DNA of 41,595 nucleotides from Armatimonadota bacterium. GTDB taxonomy: Bacteria; Armatimonadota; Chthonomonadetes; Chthonomonadales; CAJBBX01. Position 1 is the first letter of the stretch. Each line of letters begins with the position of its first letter. A model generated the notes under the pieces. That model was not told the DNA's origin. It was given only the letters and a program-made list of their open reading frames with translations, and did no database searches. Shown here piece after piece: positions 19,005 through 26,867 of this stretch. The position numbers and the translations under genes were made by a program. The stretch spans positions 1 through 41,595 of the forward strand of contig JAPLCQ010000093.1 in NCBI GenBank assembly GCA_026392115.1. The letters run 5' to 3'.

Positions 19005-19055
19005 GGGCGGCTCCGCGGTAGCGAGACATGCGCGCATCGCTCCGCCGTGGCCGGT

Positions 19056-19119
19056 GCCGTCGTGCTGAACGCAGTGAAGCACCCCGGCTCGTGCGCTGCG
19101 GTGGCTTGCGCGAGAAGCC
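19056..19119 (+). repeat. Dispersed 64-bp repeat, copy 1
   Basis: Starts GCCGTCGTGCTGAACGCAG and ends GCGAGAAGCC; identical to the copy at 19227-19290 except one base. It lies in the gene-free 304 bp between birA and the glycosidase gene. Confidence 0.85.
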
Positions 19120-19180
19120 CGGCGGCGTCCCACGCCTTGCGCTTCGCGCCGATGTACGAAGGTGTGGCGGCGGAGTCGGG

Positions 19181-19206: not shown

Positions 19207-19226
19207 CGGGGGCGTCCGGTGCTGTA

Positions 19227-19290
19227 GCCGTCGTGCTGAACGCAGTGAAGCACCCCGGCTCGTGCGCTGCGGTGGCTTGTGCGAGAAGCC
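19227..19290 (+). repeat. Dispersed 64-bp repeat, copy 2
   Basis: Direct repeat of 19056-19119, offset by 171 bp. It ends 18 bp past the glycosidase stop codon, so it would be the 3' end of that transcript. Confidence 0.85.
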
Positions 19291-19308
19291 CTCCCCCAGC
19301 CCTCTCCT

Positions 19309-22300
19309 TCACCGCCCGCCCGTCGGCGCAATCCCCAACGCTGCGGCGGCCGCCCGGTGCTGCTCGGGCGTGGACGGGCCCTGGGTGGCCAGGATCCATG
19401 ACCGCGCCATGGATGCGTCGAGGCGGAGGCGGCCGGCGGCGGGGCGGACGGTCTCATAGGTCTTCCACGCCCGGTTCACGATCTCGCCCACGGAGCAGGT
19501 GGCCTTCGCCAGAGCCCGCTGGAGCCAGACTGATCCTGCGTCGTCGGGAAGCAGTACGACGGTGGCGCTTTGCGACAGGTCTTGGCCGTCCAGCGAGACG
19601 GCGGCCAGGCTGTGCTCGGCCGCCCAGAGCTTCGTCCCGGCCACCTCCACCGTCGTGCCTTCAGCGGCGGTGACGCGACCTTCGCCGTCGAAGGCCACGT
19701 AGCCGCAACCGCCGGGGGCGAGCCAGATCTCCACGGGCTTCGGCAGGTCCATGATCTGCACCTTGAAGGGGATGCCGAGCGTGTTCACAAGGACGTGCGC
19801 TACGGAGCCGCCGAGGCCCTGGACGCGGAACGACTGCACGGTAGCAGCGTCGGGCGCGAGCCGGTGGCGGGCCAGGCGGTCGGAGGCGCAGGCGCGGACC
19901 AGCTCGGCGCGGAGGGCGTCCGGCTCGGACTTCGGACGGACCTGGACCCACGCGCCGCCGGAAGCCAACACCCTTGCCCGCAGGTCGGCGGCTGGGCCGG
20001 CGGGCTCGTCGCTGCCCGCCCAGACCGCCAGCTTCGGCGCTCCCCGCACCTGTGGAATCTGGTCGTCGGGTAGCGTGGTGAAGTCCACGTGCAGCCCCAG
20101 CAGGGCCTCCGTGGCGCGGTCCATGGCCGCCAGCGCTCCTGGGCGGCGCGCGCTGAGACGCTCGGCTGTGGGCAGCACGAGCCAGACGTCGGGCTGGACG
20201 TACCGCGGCCGGAAGGCGCGGAAGAGCGCCCCGGCGTTGCGGTAGGCCTGCAGCCGGTCGCGCAGCGAGCCGTCGGAGAGGAGCGCGCCGCAGGGGAAGA
20301 TGTCCTCCACCGGGTCCTGCCAGTGCCAGCTCGAGCTGAAGAGGGCCCCGGCGCCGAAGCAGAGGTGCGGCACCGTGCCGTAGCGGAGTTTGCCCGAGGC
20401 TTCGCTCTCGTAGACGAAGTGGGTCTTGAGGCCGGGGTGGCTGGTGAAGCCGAACTCGCCGGTGGAGGGCGCCTTGCCCAGCAGGCGCAGGTCGATCTGC
20501 TTCAGCTCGCCCGCGAACTGGCTGAACGCGCCGTAGTAGTGCCGGTTCGTGAAGTCCTGGTCCAGCGAAGCGTGGATGGGGTCCCACACCGCGGTCGTGT
20601 TGCCGAAGCCCTGCAGGTAGCCGACGCTCACCAGGCGTTTGGGAGCCACGGTGCGGACGGCGGCGCGGGTCTCGGCGGCCCACTTACGGAGGGCGTCGGC
20701 GCCGGTGCGTAGGGGGTCGGGCGTGTCGGCAGGCTGTGTCAGCGTGGGCTCGTTGCGGATGTCGACAAAGAGGCCTGGCGCGTTGCGGTAACGCCCGGCC
20801 ATGGTGGCGCCGTGGCTGTTCCGCTCGCGGACCACGGCCGGGTCCGCGCTGGGCCAGGAGAGGCCCTCGTAGAAGAGGTTGATCCCGGCCTCCTGCGCGA
20901 GCTGAACCATGGCGTCGCGGGAGCGCCAGGCCTCCTCGGTCTCGCCGCCGGGCACGTTCATGAAGGATCGGGCCACGGAGATGCCGTTATCCGCCATGGC
21001 CGCGAGCTGCGTGTGCCATCGCAGGGGATCGGTCCCCGCCACGGAGCCGTTGCCCCAGTAGATCTGGCTGCCCAGCAGGAACTCCGGCCCCCGCCCGCGG
21101 TCCATGACGTTGTCGCGGTAGGCGAGGGTCGCGCCGATCTGCTGCCGCTTCGGGCTCCAGAGCGCCACGCCGCACTCCAGCGCGTTGCCGGGCCCGTCCG
21201 GCACGGTTACGGTGAAGGCCAGTCGCAGCAGCCCCGCGGGCGCATCGGCAGGGGCTCCCACGTCGAACCGGACCGGGGCCGCGCCGTGCGCCGGGAGCGT
21301 GACGGCCAGCGACCGGGAGGCCACAAGCGTCGCTCCGCAAGTCGCCCGTAGGCGCACCACGGACTTGCGCGGCCAGGCCGCCACGTTGCCGATCATGGCT
21401 GAGACGCGGACCGTCTCGCCGGGCCTGGCGCAGGCGGGCGCGCCCTTGGCCTCGAAGAGGAAGACGCCCCGGGTCATCCGATCCAGCGCCGCCTTGAGCA
21501 GCGCCTGCCCCGCGGCGCCGGGGGCCAGCAGGTTGCGGTCGCTGATGCCCGAATAGGCCCAGACCGAGCCGGGATAGCTGCCGGCGAAGTTCCACATGAC
21601 GCCGAACGCCGTGCCGCGCCGCCTGCCGTAGCGGTCCACCGCCCGGGCCAGCGGCTCCCAGCGGGACTTCAGCGGCGCGCCGGGGACGCCTTGCCCCGTC
21701 TGGCCGATGGCGGACCATCCCCGCGCCGCGCCCGCCAAGCGCCAGGCTGCGCCGAGATCGGACGCGCCGGGGTCGGGCAGGATCGCGGCCACGTCGGAGA
21801 GGGGCGCGCCGGCGTCGCAGATGGAGACGGCGCCGGGGTCGGTCTCGAGGAAGGTGGCGGGGTTCACGCCGCCCTCGGCCGAGTTCAGGCGCGCATGGCG
21901 CCACGACACGGGCTGCACCGCGCTGGTCCAGACCTGGCCCACCAGCGCCTCGTAGGGCTGGGCGGCCTTGACAAACTCGGTGGTGATCCCGAACCGGATG
22001 GCCGTGATGTCGGCCGCCTTGGGCCGATCGCCCGCGCCGCCGCGGCCGGTGGAGGGGTTGTCCTTCCAGTACTCCATCTCGGCCAGCGAGACCTGATAGA
22101 GGCGCCAGCGGTTCGTGAGCGTCAACGTCGAGCGCCAGCGCGCGCCGTCGCGCTCCAACATCTCCACGGCGACATACAGCTCGGGCTGCGCCGATCGGGC
22201 CTCGAAGGCGACGGCTACGGCGTCGGCTGGGAGACCCTTCAGCTCGGGGCTGCCGAGGGTGACCCAGCCGCCGGAGGGCATGGCGGGCGTGCCGAAGGCG

Positions 22301-23358
22301 GCGCAGGCTCGGCCGGCGTCGGTGCGGATGGCGGCGGGCGCCTCTGGAATGTCACGGCCTCCCGCCGACCAACCCGCGCCGGGCGCAGGGGTCATGAAGG
22401 GACGCAGCGACGCGCGGTCGGGCTCGGCGTCGCCCGCCTGTACCCAGCCCTTGGCCGTGCGGACAAGGGGTTTGTCGAACGGATAGCCGCCCACGCTCAG
22501 CAGGCCGCCGCCCTGTTCCAGGAATGCGCGGATGTTTTCGGCCGCCGCCGCCGGGTAGGCGCCGCCGTAGGGCATGGCCAGGGCGGCGAAGCGCGAGGCG
22601 TTGAGGCGCCGGGGATCGGCCAGGTCGGCGGCGGTGAGGAAGGCCGGGGCCGCGCCGGCTGCCGATGCCATGCGGGCCAGCGCTGCCGGGTCGGAGGGCG
22701 TCCCCGACGCGGGCAGGTTGTCGCGGAGGATGGCAAGGCCCGGCCGTCCGCGTCCCTGTGCGCCGGTAACGGCGGCCTCCTGCGGCGCCCAGGGGGTGTC
22801 GGAAGAACCCAGGGTGGCTTGCATTCGGTCGAACCAGGCGTCGCCGTGCCCGTGCAGCACCAGGTTCAGCTCCACGCGGGCCGTTCCCGGCGGCACGGCG
22901 AAGGGCATCGTCAGGCGCGTCCAGCCGCTGTCGCCGGTCACGCGTCCGGGCGAGTCCTGCCAGCTCAGCCGCACGCCGGCGGCGTCGAAGTAGTTGAACC
23001 CCAGGTAGGCCCCGCTGCCCCCGACCGCGCCGCGGGTGCGGACCTGGCCGCAGAGCAGGCCGGTGTCGTCGGACTTCAGGCCGCGGACGATCTGCCGCGC
23101 GATGTACCATGTCGCCTCGGCGGAAACGGGCGCCGAAATGTGGTGGCACGGCCCGCCCTCCACGCCCTCGGCATCGGCGCGGGAGTTGACGCCTCCCTCG
23201 GCGATGCGGGTCGCGGCCCAGCCGTCAGCAGGTCCGTCGGAGGCGAAACGCACCGTGAAGTCCGAGTTGCGCACCAGGTTCAGCGGCGCGGCCAAGGACG
23301 CTGACGCCAGGCCCAGGAACAGCCCGACGACCGCGGGGATCGAGATCGAGGTTGCCAT
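19309..23358 (-). CDS. Large secreted multidomain glycoside hydrolase, clan GH-A-like
   Basis: A 1349-aa protein, ATG at 23358 with AAGGG 8 bases upstream. Signal peptide about 1-24 (LASASLAA). Next comes a carbohydrate-binding-like beta-sandwich (25-185, NLVRNSDF...WTRLTMPF...DAWFDRMQA), then an alpha/beta ThuA/glutamine-amidotransferase-like part (about 200-300), a second beta-sandwich (350-500), an Ig-like region (about 640-750) and a TIM barrel. The barrel has DIRNEPT with Glu870 (acid/base) and STGEFGF with Glu968 (nucleophile), 98 residues apart, as in clan GH-A retaining enzymes. The tail (1100-1349) holds another alpha/beta part and a beta domain. It lies 21 bp after the permease gene, so it is probably the last gene of a sugar operon. 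I cannot assign a GH number or substrate. Confidence 0.85.
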   Translation of the reverse strand: MATSISIPAVVGLFLGLASASLAAPLNLVRNSDFTVRFASDGPADGWAATRIAEGGVNSRADAEGVEGGPCHHISAPVSAEATWYIARQIVRGLKSDDTGLLCGQVRTRGAVGGSGAYLGFNYFDAAGVRLSWQDSPGRVTGDSGWTRLTMPFAVPPGTARVELNLVLHGHGDAWFDRMQATLGSSDTPWAPQEAAVTGAQGRGRPGLAILRDNLPASGTPSDPAALARMASAAGAAPAFLTAADLADPRRLNASRFAALAMPYGGAYPAAAAENIRAFLEQGGGLLSVGGYPFDKPLVRTAKGWVQAGDAEPDRASLRPFMTPAPGAGWSAGGRDIPEAPAAIRTDAGRACAAFGTPAMPSGGWVTLGSPELKGLPADAVAVAFEARSAQPELYVAVEMLERDGARWRSTLTLTNRWRLYQVSLAEMEYWKDNPSTGRGGAGDRPKAADITAIRFGITTEFVKAAQPYEALVGQVWTSAVQPVSWRHARLNSAEGGVNPATFLETDPGAVSICDAGAPLSDVAAILPDPGASDLGAAWRLAGAARGWSAIGQTGQGVPGAPLKSRWEPLARAVDRYGRRRGTAFGVMWNFAGSYPGSVWAYSGISDRNLLAPGAAGQALLKAALDRMTRGVFLFEAKGAPACARPGETVRVSAMIGNVAAWPRKSVVRLRATCGATLVASRSLAVTLPAHGAAPVRFDVGAPADAPAGLLRLAFTVTVPDGPGNALECGVALWSPKRQQIGATLAYRDNVMDRGRGPEFLLGSQIYWGNGSVAGTDPLRWHTQLAAMADNGISVARSFMNVPGGETEEAWRSRDAMVQLAQEAGINLFYEGLSWPSADPAVVRERNSHGATMAGRYRNAPGLFVDIRNEPTLTQPADTPDPLRTGADALRKWAAETRAAVRTVAPKRLVSVGYLQGFGNTTAVWDPIHASLDQDFTNRHYYGAFSQFAGELKQIDLRLLGKAPSTGEFGFTSHPGLKTHFVYESEASGKLRYGTVPHLCFGAGALFSSSWHWQDPVEDIFPCGALLSDGSLRDRLQAYRNAGALFRAFRPRYVQPDVWLVLPTAERLSARRPGALAAMDRATEALLGLHVDFTTLPDDQIPQVRGAPKLAVWAGSDEPAGPAADLRARVLASGGAWVQVRPKSEPDALRAELVRACASDRLARHRLAPDAATVQSFRVQGLGGSVAHVLVNTLGIPFKVQIMDLPKPVEIWLAPGGCGYVAFDGEGRVTAAEGTTVEVAGTKLWAAEHSLAAVSLDGQDLSQSATVVLLPDDAGSVWLQRALAKATCSVGEIVNRAWKTYETVRPAAGRLRLDASMARSWILATQGPSTPEQHRAAAAALGIAPTGGR

Positions 23359-23379: not shown

Positions 23380-24735
23380 TCAGGCTCCCGCCTTGCTCCA
23401 GCGTCTGCGCTTCAGCATGTCCAGCAGTACCGCGCCCAGGATCACGAGGCCCAGCACCACCTTCTGCAGGTAGGGTTCCACATCCATCAGGTTCATCCCG
23501 TTGCGGATGACGCCGATGATGAGCGCACCGATCAGCGTGCCGAAGATGCGCCCCTCGCCGCCCGAGAGGCTCGCCCCGCCCACGACGACCGCGGCGATCA
23601 CGTAGAGCTCGTACATGGCGCCGTAGGTGGCCGAACCCGCCCGAAGCTGGCTCGTGGTGATGACGCCGCCCACGCCGGCCATGATGCCCGAGATGGAGTA
23701 GACCAGCATCAGCACCTTGCGCGTGCTGATGCCCGAAAGCCGCGCCGCCTCGAAGTTGCCGCCCAGCGCGTAGATGTTCCGCCCGATCCGCGTCTGCGAC
23801 ATCACGATGTGGGCCGCCACGTAGATCAGCGCCATGAGCGCCACGGCGTTCGGGATGCCGCCCAGGTCCGCGCCGCGGCCCAGCCAGACGAACGACTTGG
23901 GGATATCGAAGATGCTGAGCCCGCCGGAGACGATGAAGGCGAGACCGCTGGTCACCTGCATCATGGCCAGAGAGGAGATGAACGGCGGCACCTTGAAGAG
24001 GGTCACCATGGCCCCGTTGACGCTGCCCACGAGCCCGCAGAGGAGGATCGTGGCAAGCGAGGCGACGATGAGCGCACCCGGTCCGGCGGCGACGCCACCC
24101 ATATGTGCGATCATCCACGCGGCGGTGACCGAACCGAAGGCGAGCAGGCTCCCCACGGAGAGGTCGATGCCGCCGGTGATGATGACCAGCGTCATGCCGA
24201 CCGCCATGATGGCGATCACCGAGATCTGGTCCGCGATGTTGCGCAGGTTGCTTGACGAGAGGAAGGTGCTGCCCCGGACGGTGCGGGGCGTCACGACCTC
24301 CAGCCCGGCATAGGCGCCCCCCTCGGACTTCAGCGCCTCGAAGAGGGTCCAGTCGGCGCATGACCGGGTGGTGGCGACCACGCCCAGCGGCTCCGCGGCC
24401 GCCACCCGCTCCAGCGCGGCGCGGACCGTGGGCGGATCGCCGCTCAGCGTGCCGCGCGCGGGCGTGCCCGCCTTGGTGAGCGCCTCCTCAAGGCTCCGTG
24501 CGAAGGCCTCGCCCTCGCTGTCCTGGCTCTGGACGATGATGACGCCCGTTCGGCCCTTCAGGTCGGCCGCCAGGGCCGTCCCGGCGGCGGCGCCTGTGGG
24601 GTTCTCGTCATGGTAGGTCGCCAGGGCGAAGAAGGCGCAGAGCAGCGCCAGCACGGCCAGCATGCCGTAGGCGTTGGCGAGTTGGGCCGCGGCGCTGCGC
24701 CGGCCCGCGGCCCGTGTCTCGGGGGACTGCGTCAC
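23380..24735 (-). CDS. RbsC-like sugar ABC transporter permease with large periplasmic insertion
   Basis: A 451-aa protein of the ribose/galactose permease family (BPD_transp_2), moving a sugar across the inner membrane. Hallmark GGIDLSVGSLLAFG at 188-201. The first span (about 23-40) and the second are separated by about 115 extra residues (43-155, including GRTGVIIVQSQDSEGEAFA); typical RbsC is about 320 aa, so this is an insertion resembling part of a binding-protein lobe. GTG start at 24735; its GTGA overlaps the stop of the binding-protein gene by 3 bases, indicating coupled translation. No RbsA-type ATPase is adjacent. Confidence 0.92.
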   Translation of the reverse strand: MTQSPETRAAGRRSAAAQLANAYGMLAVLALLCAFFALATYHDENPTGAAAGTALAADLKGRTGVIIVQSQDSEGEAFARSLEEALTKAGTPARGTLSGDPPTVRAALERVAAAEPLGVVATTRSCADWTLFEALKSEGGAYAGLEVVTPRTVRGSTFLSSSNLRNIADQISVIAIMAVGMTLVIITGGIDLSVGSLLAFGSVTAAWMIAHMGGVAAGPGALIVASLATILLCGLVGSVNGAMVTLFKVPPFISSLAMMQVTSGLAFIVSGGLSIFDIPKSFVWLGRGADLGGIPNAVALMALIYVAAHIVMSQTRIGRNIYALGGNFEAARLSGISTRKVLMLVYSISGIMAGVGGVITTSQLRAGSATYGAMYELYVIAAVVVGGASLSGGEGRIFGTLIGALIIGVIRNGMNLMDVEPYLQKVVLGLVILGAVLLDMLKRRRWSKAGA

Positions 24736-25682
24736 GGCTTCTTCAGGCTCGGATCCTTGTCGGCGTCGGCCTTGCGGTAGAGCTCCGTGGGGATCAGCTC
24801 CTCGCCGTAGACGCGCTTGCCGGCGAAGTAGGCCGCAATGGACTCGATGGTCTTGGCACCGATGCGGTCGGGGAACTGGACGGGCTCGGCGTAGATCTTG
24901 CCGGAGCGGACGGCTTCCTTGGCCTCGGGCTGCCCGTCGAAGGAGATGACCTTGATGCGGCCCGTGCGGCCGGCCTTCTCCATGGCCGCCAGGGCGCCCA
25001 GCGCGGTCGGGTCGTTGATGCAGAAGAGGCCGTCGAGGTCGGGATGCTTCTCCAGGACGTCCTGCGTCGCCTTATAAGAGGTATCGCGAAGGGCGCCGCC
25101 GGGCACTGAGGAGACGATGCTCATGCCCTTGTGCTTGGCCAGCACCTCGCGGAAGCCCTTGGTGCGGAGCATGACCGACTCGATCTCGGGATGGTCGATG
25201 ATCGCCACCTTGCCCTTGCCCTTGAGCGCCTCGACCATGGCCTCGCCGGCCAGCTTGCCGCCGCTGTAGTTGTCTGTGGCGATGTGCGAGACGACCTTGG
25301 CGTTCTTGGCCAGGCACTGGATGTCGGCGGTGAAGACAGGGATGTCGGCCTTGTTGGCCTCCTGGATCGAGGTGCCGATGGAGGTGGAGTTGCAGGGGCA
25401 GAGGACGATGGCGTTCACCTTCTTGACGATGAAGTCGCTCACCTGGTCTTTTTGCCGGCTCGGGTCCAGCTCGCCCGAGGTGACGATGACCTCGTAGCCG
25501 CGCTTCTTTCCCTCGGCCTGCATCGAGTCCGCCATCACCTTGAAGAAGGGGTTGGCCAGCGTGAGGACGGAGACGCCGATCACCTTCTGGCTCTTCGCCT
25601 CCTTCTTCTCGCCCGCGCATCCGGCCATCGCCGCCAATGCCAGAACCGCCGCGGCCATCGCGGCCGGCTTCCTGTAGCTCAT
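24732..25682 (-). CDS. Sugar-binding lipoprotein of an ABC transporter (RbsB-like)
   Basis: A 316-aa periplasmic binding protein. ATG at 25682 follows AAGGAG at 7 bases. Lipoprotein signal with lipobox AMAGC (Cys22). The mature sequence fits the Peripla_BP_4 fold: VIGVSVLTLANPFFKVMADSM, ELDPSRQKDQVSDFIVKKVNAIVL, ATDNYSGGKLAGEAM, INDPTALGALAAMEKAGR, VISFDGQPEAKEAVRSG. It delivers a sugar to the permease encoded immediately downstream. A palindromic operator candidate sits just upstream of the ribosome site. The ligand is not predictable; many members bind ribose, xylose, galactose or inositol. Confidence 0.95.
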   Translation of the reverse strand: MSYRKPAAMAAAVLALAAMAGCAGEKKEAKSQKVIGVSVLTLANPFFKVMADSMQAEGKKRGYEVIVTSGELDPSRQKDQVSDFIVKKVNAIVLCPCNSTSIGTSIQEANKADIPVFTADIQCLAKNAKVVSHIATDNYSGGKLAGEAMVEALKGKGKVAIIDHPEIESVMLRTKGFREVLAKHKGMSIVSSVPGGALRDTSYKATQDVLEKHPDLDGLFCINDPTALGALAAMEKAGRTGRIKVISFDGQPEAKEAVRSGKIYAEPVQFPDRIGAKTIESIAAYFAGKRVYGEELIPTELYRKADADKDPSLKKP

Positions 25683-25814: not shown

Positions 25815-26867
25815 TCAGCCGTAGGCCAGCCCCGCCTCGCGCATGGCCAGGATATTCGCCAGCGGGATACCGTCGTGCAGGGAGTGGTCGGATGCGAGCA
25901 CGTAGCCGCCACCCGGGGCCGCCACGCGCAGGGCCTCGCGGACCTCGGCCTCGACCTCGGTCGGAGTGCCGTAGGGGAGCGTGCGCGAGGAGTCGATGTT
26001 GCCGATGAGACAGAAGCGGGTCCCGTAGTTGGCCTTCATCCATGCCAGGTCCATGCCCGCCGTCCGCTGCATAGGGTGGATGGCCGCGATGCGCGTCCGG
26101 GCCAGGTCGGGCAGATAATCGGTGATGCGCCCGCAACTGTGCAGGAGCATGGGAAGGCCCAGCTTGTCGACGGCGTCGGTGAGCTCCACCAGGTGCGGCA
26201 GGTAGAGATTGCGGAACGTGTCGAGCCGCAGGAAGCCGTGGGTGCTGTCGCCCAGGTCCTCCGAGGCCCAGATGGCGTCGCAGCCCGCGGCGGCGCACTG
26301 GCGGGCGGCCTCCATGTTGTACTCGTTGCACATACGGAAGATGTCGGTGAGCAGATCGGGCTCGTCGTAGATGGCGTAGCAGATGCGCTCGTAGCCCATC
26401 AGCATCCAGCAGGCGGTGAAGGGCCCCGCCACGCCTCCGGTGATCGCCGGCCCGTCGGTCGCCAGTCCGGCGGCCGCCTCGATCTCGGCGGCGCGTCCGG
26501 GCAGCGTGGGATCCGGCGCGCGGTAGGCGTCCAGGTCGGCCCGAGATGTGATGGGGTAGGCCACCGGTGCGTCGATGGGCCACGAGCTGGCGTTGGTGCG
26601 GAACGTGGCGCCCCACTCGTCGACGTAGGTATCGGCGTTTATGAACTCGGGTTGGAAGCCGCTGAACCCGCCGTAGGGCAGCCAGACGGCGTCATGCTGC
26701 AGCGCCAGCGCCAGCGCCAGCGCCACGGCGTCGCGGGCGTTGTATGCCGCCGGCGTCCGGCCGATCAGCGCCTCGTACATGGGGCGCTGGAACAGGAAGT
26801 CGAACAGCGGCACGCGGTCCGGGATGCCACCGCGCACGGCGGTCAGGAAGCGTTCTCGTCGAGTCAT
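25815..26867 (-). CDS. Uroporphyrinogen decarboxylase (URO-D) superfamily enzyme, non-HemE
   Basis: A 350-aa protein, ATG at 26867 after GAGGTGAGGG. The start MTRRERFLTAVRGGIPDRVPLFDF and the later LLHSCGRITDYLP (His243-x-Cys245) and CLIGNIDSSRTLPYGTP are typical of the MtaA/URO-D family, in which the H-x-C pair binds zinc for methyl transfer. True HemE has different substrate-binding arginines near the N-terminus; this protein lacks the usual HemE fingerprint. It precedes the sugar-binding protein gene by 132 bp on the same strand. URO-D-like genes beside sugar transporters and glycosidases recur in Planctomycetota and Armatimonadota, with unknown chemistry. Specific reaction not assigned. 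Confidence 0.82.
   Translation of the reverse strand: MTRRERFLTAVRGGIPDRVPLFDFLFQRPMYEALIGRTPAAYNARDAVALALALALQHDAVWLPYGGFSGFQPEFINADTYVDEWGATFRTNASSWPIDAPVAYPITSRADLDAYRAPDPTLPGRAAEIEAAAGLATDGPAITGGVAGPFTACWMLMGYERICYAIYDEPDLLTDIFRMCNEYNMEAARQCAAAGCDAIWASEDLGDSTHGFLRLDTFRNLYLPHLVELTDAVDKLGLPMLLHSCGRITDYLPDLARTRIAAIHPMQRTAGMDLAWMKANYGTRFCLIGNIDSSRTLPYGTPTEVEAEVREALRVAAPGGGYVLASDHSLHDGIPLANILAMREAGLAYG

Follow-up and report, generated by a model that had tools for sequence, protein, structure and literature searches.

A permease of the RbsC-like CUT2 class, encoded in the 41,595-nucleotide stretch of Armatimonadota DNA analysed here (the window), was found to carry a domain of about 115 residues between its first and second transmembrane segments (TM1 and TM2), with both the fold and the sequence profile of the C-terminal lobe (C-lobe) of a ribose-class substrate-binding protein (SBP). 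Our favoured reading, held at a probability of roughly 0.6, is that a type I ribose-class (Peripla_BP_4) C-lobe was captured once, no longer binds sugar and has been retained to help a separate SBP dock or to gate the pore. The origin taken alone, i.e. that the insert is a PBP-I ribose-class SBP C-lobe captured into a CUT2 permease, we consider very likely. Features of the locus are listed in Table 1.

Table 1. Position of the insert-bearing permease, its parts and its neighbours in the window.
Feature	Position	Strand	Details or basis
RbsC-like (CUT2, BPD_transp_2) permease with inserted domain	23380..24735	minus	451 aa, GTG start
TM1 of permease, residues about 21-40	24616..24675	minus	read from sequence
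Inserted domain, residues 42-158 (extent of model and alignments)	24262..24612	minus	alignments, AlphaFold2
Insert core matched to SBP C-lobe (permease 46-148 vs SBP 136-246)	24292..24600	minus	hhalign
BPD_transp_2 transmembrane part, residues 164-435	23431..24246	minus	Pfam
Ribose-class substrate-binding lipoprotein (Peripla_BP_4, lipobox Cys22), presumed partner	24732..25682	minus	Pfam, NCBIfam, RbsB alignment
URO-D / MtaA-CmuA-like protein, upstream on same strand	25815..26867	minus	Pfam, NCBIfam
1349-aa ORF, 21 bp downstream of permease, weakly matching cellulase (GH5)	19309..23358	minus	Pfam

The permease gene and the SBP gene upstream of it overlap in the letters GTGA, which contain the start codon of the former and the stop codon of the latter. 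Residues 164-435 match PF02653 (E = 3.8e-44, 151.3 bits against a cut-off of 26.8), which assigns the protein to the CUT2 permease class by Pfam, and sugar transport as a homodimer with an SBP and an ATPase is the predicted function. No Pfam match was found N-terminal of residue 164, and position 38 of the NCBIfam RbsC model aligns with residue 156 (240 bits, the cut-off of 398 not being reached), hence the permease possesses more than 110 extra residues, located between TM1 and FLSSSNLRNIADQI, the segment leading to TM2. The initial annotation had placed an insertion of about 115 residues at positions 24265-24615 (residues 41-157) and held that a typical RbsC has no such domain. The insertion is real and the two model alignments agree with the second statement; the strings quoted for the insertion are also present, with GRTGVIIVQSQDSEGEAF at residues 61-78, ALERVAAAEPLGVVATT at 107-123 and a last strand, LEVVTP, at 145-150. 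Arginines R8, R12 and R13 precede TM1 and the motif HDEN follows it, which suggests that the N-terminus lies inside and the insert outside, and fits a position of the insert-bearing TM1-TM2 loop on the outer (periplasmic) face. The window's own insert gave no credible Pfam or NCBIfam match, a Toprim match at E = 0.1 being regarded as chance, and a sequence search of the PDB with the full permease returned no matches.

Structure prediction, the check originally proposed for this region, yielded an ordered PBP-I-like domain, and neither disorder nor unrelated helices were obtained. The AlphaFold2 model of the insert (seven aligned inserts as input; pLDDT 82, pTM 0.72) opens with a helix and follows the element order H-E-H-E-H-E-H-E, the alternating alpha/beta fold of a PBP-I C-terminal lobe. 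Block pLDDT values of 83-89 were obtained for the same region in a model of the full-length permease; that model is poor overall, membrane part included (pLDDT 58, pTM 0.43), and the lobe cannot be placed on it. All 50 of the Foldseek matches listed for the insert model are PBP-I folds by name, with a best E of 1.1e-3 among them and none below 0.001. VIA-align gave Z-scores of 9.6-10.8 over 104-115 residues among the 50 matches listed, and E. coli RbsB entries were matched over residues 100-243, boundaries which we take to be those of the C-terminal lobe. The earlier description of the insert as an alpha/beta domain resembling a binding-protein lobe therefore holds, and is narrowed to a C-lobe of the Peripla_BP_4 type by the fold search, together with the decoy-controlled hhalign comparison and the Pfam register given below.

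The hhalign comparison did not become significant until the alignments were deepened to 57 inserts and 46 SBPs; an earlier, shallow comparison of 22 inserts with 15 closely related SBPs gave probabilities of 0.4 and 0.9 percent, which are not significant. The deep insert alignment represents 57 of the 63 genomes with an insert (62 from three phylum samples plus the L059 genome); G032, G276 and G277 were left out, as were G909 and G1044 (partial matches) and G044/L035 (failed the end-to-end filter). In this deep comparison the insert profile matched the SBP profile with a score of 37.5 (E = 2.2e-5 as one comparison), rising to 44.5 (E = 2.2e-6) in the opposite direction, and the match spans 93-107 columns in C-lobe register. 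When the SBP was split by half, the C-lobe scored 37.3 and the N-lobe 20.8. Decoys, comprising reversed profiles and 200 column-shuffled SBP profiles, scored 14.9 (reversed SBP), 15.8 (reversed insert) and, at the top of the 200 shuffles, 17.5. Peripla_BP_4 was also the commonest family in Pfam scans of single inserts (7 of 50 members). The planctomycete inserts L156 and L159 map to Peripla_BP_4 positions 105-193 (E = 2e-7) and 105-190 (E = 2.5e-6), respectively, and among the 20 members scanned in detail three further inserts map weakly inside positions 103-207 of 258, i.e. in the C-terminal lobe, with L144 mapping to the N-lobe part (E = 0.071). No member scanned reached the Pfam gathering score for Peripla_BP_4 (best 31.3 vs 35.1 bits), and the window's own insert gave no Pfam match to this family.

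Plain HMM searches gave another ranking. When the PDB was searched with the insert profile in HMMER, designed Rossmann proteins and flavodoxins ranked above entries of binding-protein type, such as LivJ (E = 0.15) and a ribose repressor (E = 0.82). An insert HMM was also run against 2099 ORFs from the loci, of which 123 are SBPs, and its best non-insert matches were not SBPs. The top of the PDB lists speaks for an unrelated Rossmann-like domain, flavodoxin- or receiver-like, which merely resembles an SBP lobe. Most of these matches, however, span 35-70 columns, against the 93-107 aligned by hhalign in C-lobe register with decoys far lower; Peripla_BP_4 is the Pfam family matched by the largest number of members, and the fold lists consist, among the matches listed, of PBP-I folds. 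An unrelated Rossmann domain is accordingly the most improbable of the explanations considered here, and a C-lobe origin is favoured since the plain-HMM results are outweighed by the decoy-controlled hhalign comparison, by the match in fold and by the register of the Pfam matches.

The upstream SBP and the insert differ at the sugar-contact positions that can be aligned. SBP residues R173, N223, D249 and Q269 align with R141, N190, D215 and Q235 of RbsB, presumably the ribose contacts of its C-lobe, and are invariant in 15 aligned SBPs. The SBP thus keeps most RbsB sugar contacts, but Ile121 replaces Arg90 of RbsB, so that its ligand may be one other than ribose. The column of SBP Arg173 (98% R) corresponds to Phe78 of the insert (84% F) at a posterior of 0.50, and the columns of Asn223/Asp224 (84/87%) are variable in the inserts at a posterior of about 0.95, while D249 and Q269 (RbsB D215, Q235) lie outside the range aligned to the insert. 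As the alignable sugar-contact positions, R141 and N190 of RbsB, are replaced, the captured lobe should no longer bind sugar in the RbsB manner. Compared with ribose-class SBPs such as RbsB, the insert therefore shares the C-lobe fold and sequence profile but is a single lobe with a truncated end, has lost the aligned ligand residues and is located in a permease loop within the permease ORF, with no second lobe, signal peptide of its own or secretion.

The inserts of 22 permeases from Armatimonadota, Planctomycetota and Verrucomicrobiota can be aligned over their full length, F37, W88 and F117 (insert numbering) being invariant, which indicates more than chance. At fixed insert positions, W, F, P, R and G residues are also nearly invariant in all three phyla. 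A profile of these 22 inserts detected the domain in 23 of 291 Armatimonadota genomes, 29 of 392 genomes of the Planctomycetota phylum and 10 of 387 of the Verrucomicrobiota phylum, the three samples from outside Armatimonadota being drawn evenly from larger groups. The third of these, from the phylum of Seinonella, had the insert in none of 398 genomes; as it contains no known positive, we make no claim of absence there. The source genome possesses a single insert (other matches at E of at least 0.18), although 21 of its stretches match PF02653. Some loci have unusual reading frames: in L219 (G026) and L216 (G032) the insert permease is split over two overlapping frames, owing to a frameshift or an assembly error, and in L078/L042 (G057) it lies within a stop-to-stop frame of 1415 residues, which is either a real fusion or a long GC-rich open frame.

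A tree built from the transmembrane part only, without the insert, groups 59 insert permeases in one clade against 25 permeases lacking it, with a support of 100/100, and none of 500 label shuffles gave a value as low as the observed insert grouping (the empty row L014_0m was excluded). A single origin of the captured C-lobe is therefore well supported in the sampled tree. Armatimonadota supply most of the insert-free rows, Planctomycetota two and Bacillota one, so that the clade might yet be divided by broader sampling.

The insert is under purifying selection, which is looser than in the transmembrane part. In two comparisons within the genus dN/dS was 0.26 for the insert vs 0.03-0.06 for the transmembrane part, with 10 and 7 residue changes in the 117 positions of the insert and 4 and 9 in the 293 of the transmembrane part. 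This faster evolution, together with shorter inserts of 108-111 residues in L035, L042 and L152, would suit a C-lobe relic or fold-stabilising spacer, derived from an accidental fusion and needed for folding or dimerisation with no role towards the SBP. Such a relic sits less well with a dN/dS far under 1, with near-invariant residues at set positions in three phyla and with retention of the insert in 59 of 59 clade rows, though rows were picked for having the insert. We consider it unlikely, although it ranks first among the less likely explanations, ahead of a regulatory lobe and of an unrelated Rossmann domain.

Ligand-sensing PBP-I lobes occur in LacI and in mGlu receptors, and proteins of this kind fill the Foldseek and VIA-align lists, hence the insert might instead use its old cleft face to bind a small molecule or another protein and regulate transport. 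Several of the most strongly conserved positions, namely Gly99, Pro101, Arg105, Trp129 and Pro150, follow strands, as such a binding face would suggest, but conservation at the cleft-facing strand ends is only suggestive, since 11 of 108 circular shifts reach the observed level and the clustering is not significant. One lobe alone is moreover unable to close on a ligand, and the RbsB contact residues are lost where they can be aligned. A regulatory lobe of this type is improbable in our view, slightly more so than the structural relic.

We therefore return to a docking or gating piece, which is favoured because the insert is located where SBPs dock, an SBP gene lies next door, the domain is shaped like an SBP lobe, its checkable contacts are lost and it is under selection. 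Judging from its position and conservation, the insert probably helps the separate SBP to dock or helps to open the pore. Of the 22 other Armatimonadota genomes for which flanking sequence was available, 19 have an SBP match on the same strand upstream of the permease (L077 with one intervening ORF). The URO-D / MtaA-CmuA-like gene possibly belongs to the same operon as the SBP and permease. The 1349-aa ORF on the other side of the permease is retained, at 89-94% identity, in two further genomes from this genus. Its long N-terminal part has no Pfam match, and two direct repeats (19045-19138 and 19216-19309, 94 bases each, 85% identical and 171 bases apart) are present at the end of this GH5-like ORF.

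A neighbouring RbsA, usual but not universal for CUT2 systems, is missing from the Armatimonadota loci. None was seen beside the window permease, and the 22 other Armatimonadota genomes with flanking sequence likewise have none next to the insert permease. In the other two phyla the insert permease has an RbsA neighbour at 6 of 10 loci (Verrucomicrobiota phylum) and at 18 of 27 (Planctomycetota); flank lengths vary among these counts, and G909, G993 and G1009 (of 29 Planctomycetota) and the duplicates L055 and L056 were left out. A double ATPase of the RbsA type is encoded elsewhere in the source genome, on a different contig (G000:C68:25683-27338; L098:6684-8342, minus strand; L220). It is 54-55% identical to the verrucomicrobial partner, and the roughly 6 kb around it contain neither an SBP nor a permease match. 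SBP-permease pairs lacking an adjoining RbsA occur in the same genome on C21, C85, C124, C71, C8 and C169. In 20 of the 22 insert-bearing Armatimonadota genomes searched, this one included, the best RbsA match lacks any permease or SBP match in its flanks (at most 1.5 kb, or about 6 kb in the source genome; L221-L239). By analogy, the orphan two-domain ribose-type ATPase looks like the shared ATPases MsmX and MsiK; CUT2 and RbsA are mentioned nowhere in the available portion of a paper on multitask ATPases (PMC7658222).

Under the proposed mechanism, a C-lobe would have been captured once by a CUT2 permease, entering its TM1-TM2 loop on the periplasmic side. The chain would leave TM1 and join the lobe at the point where the SBP crosses its hinge (the 'DN..GG..A' helix), pass through four strands with intervening helices and exit near the position of the SBP 'FDG' hinge, leaving out the last strand and helices of a complete C-lobe. 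CUT2 permeases act as homodimers, so two lobes would be located over the pore entry, and the pair may serve as a built-in docking or gating piece which receives the lipoprotein SBP encoded just upstream. A more specific version, which we regard as tentative and doubtful, is that the two lobes of the homodimer form a permanent half-SBP collar over the pore, which would do part of the docking and in which the free SBP would be held by lobe-lobe contacts of the kind through which PBP-I proteins dimerise while sugar is released, and that in Armatimonadota one orphan RbsA-type ATPase would be shared by several SBP-permease pairs.

Compared with other RbsC/CUT2 permeases, the window permease has the same transmembrane part (PF02653; NCBIfam RbsC, 240 bits) and an adjoining ribose-class SBP gene, but differs in its TM1-TM2 domain of about 115 residues, in scoring below the RbsC cut-off and in the missing RbsA at the Armatimonadota locus. 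Binding proteins normally visit the permease and then leave; importers of the OpuA type tether them whole, and GlnPQ is a type I importer with covalently fused substrate-binding domains. In OpuA, the transmembrane subunit is reported to carry a tethered SBP-derived domain at its outer face (PMC11065425). The insert permease resembles OpuA and GlnPQ in having an SBP-derived domain tethered in this way, but those importers carry whole ligand-binding domains, whereas the insert is a single in-loop lobe without the aligned contacts and the complete SBP is separate, hence no complete ligand-binding domain is fused to this permease. No description of such a permease was found in matching titles or abstract openings.

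A permease with half an SBP and without checkable sugar contacts, which forms one clade yet occurs in three phyla, constitutes a natural experiment on the roles of the lobes in docking. As no permease of the CUT2 family was found in the PDB with the profile used, a structure of the insert permease would inform the whole family. If the collar were true, a half-SBP collar transporter would define a docking class that is new within the type I importers.
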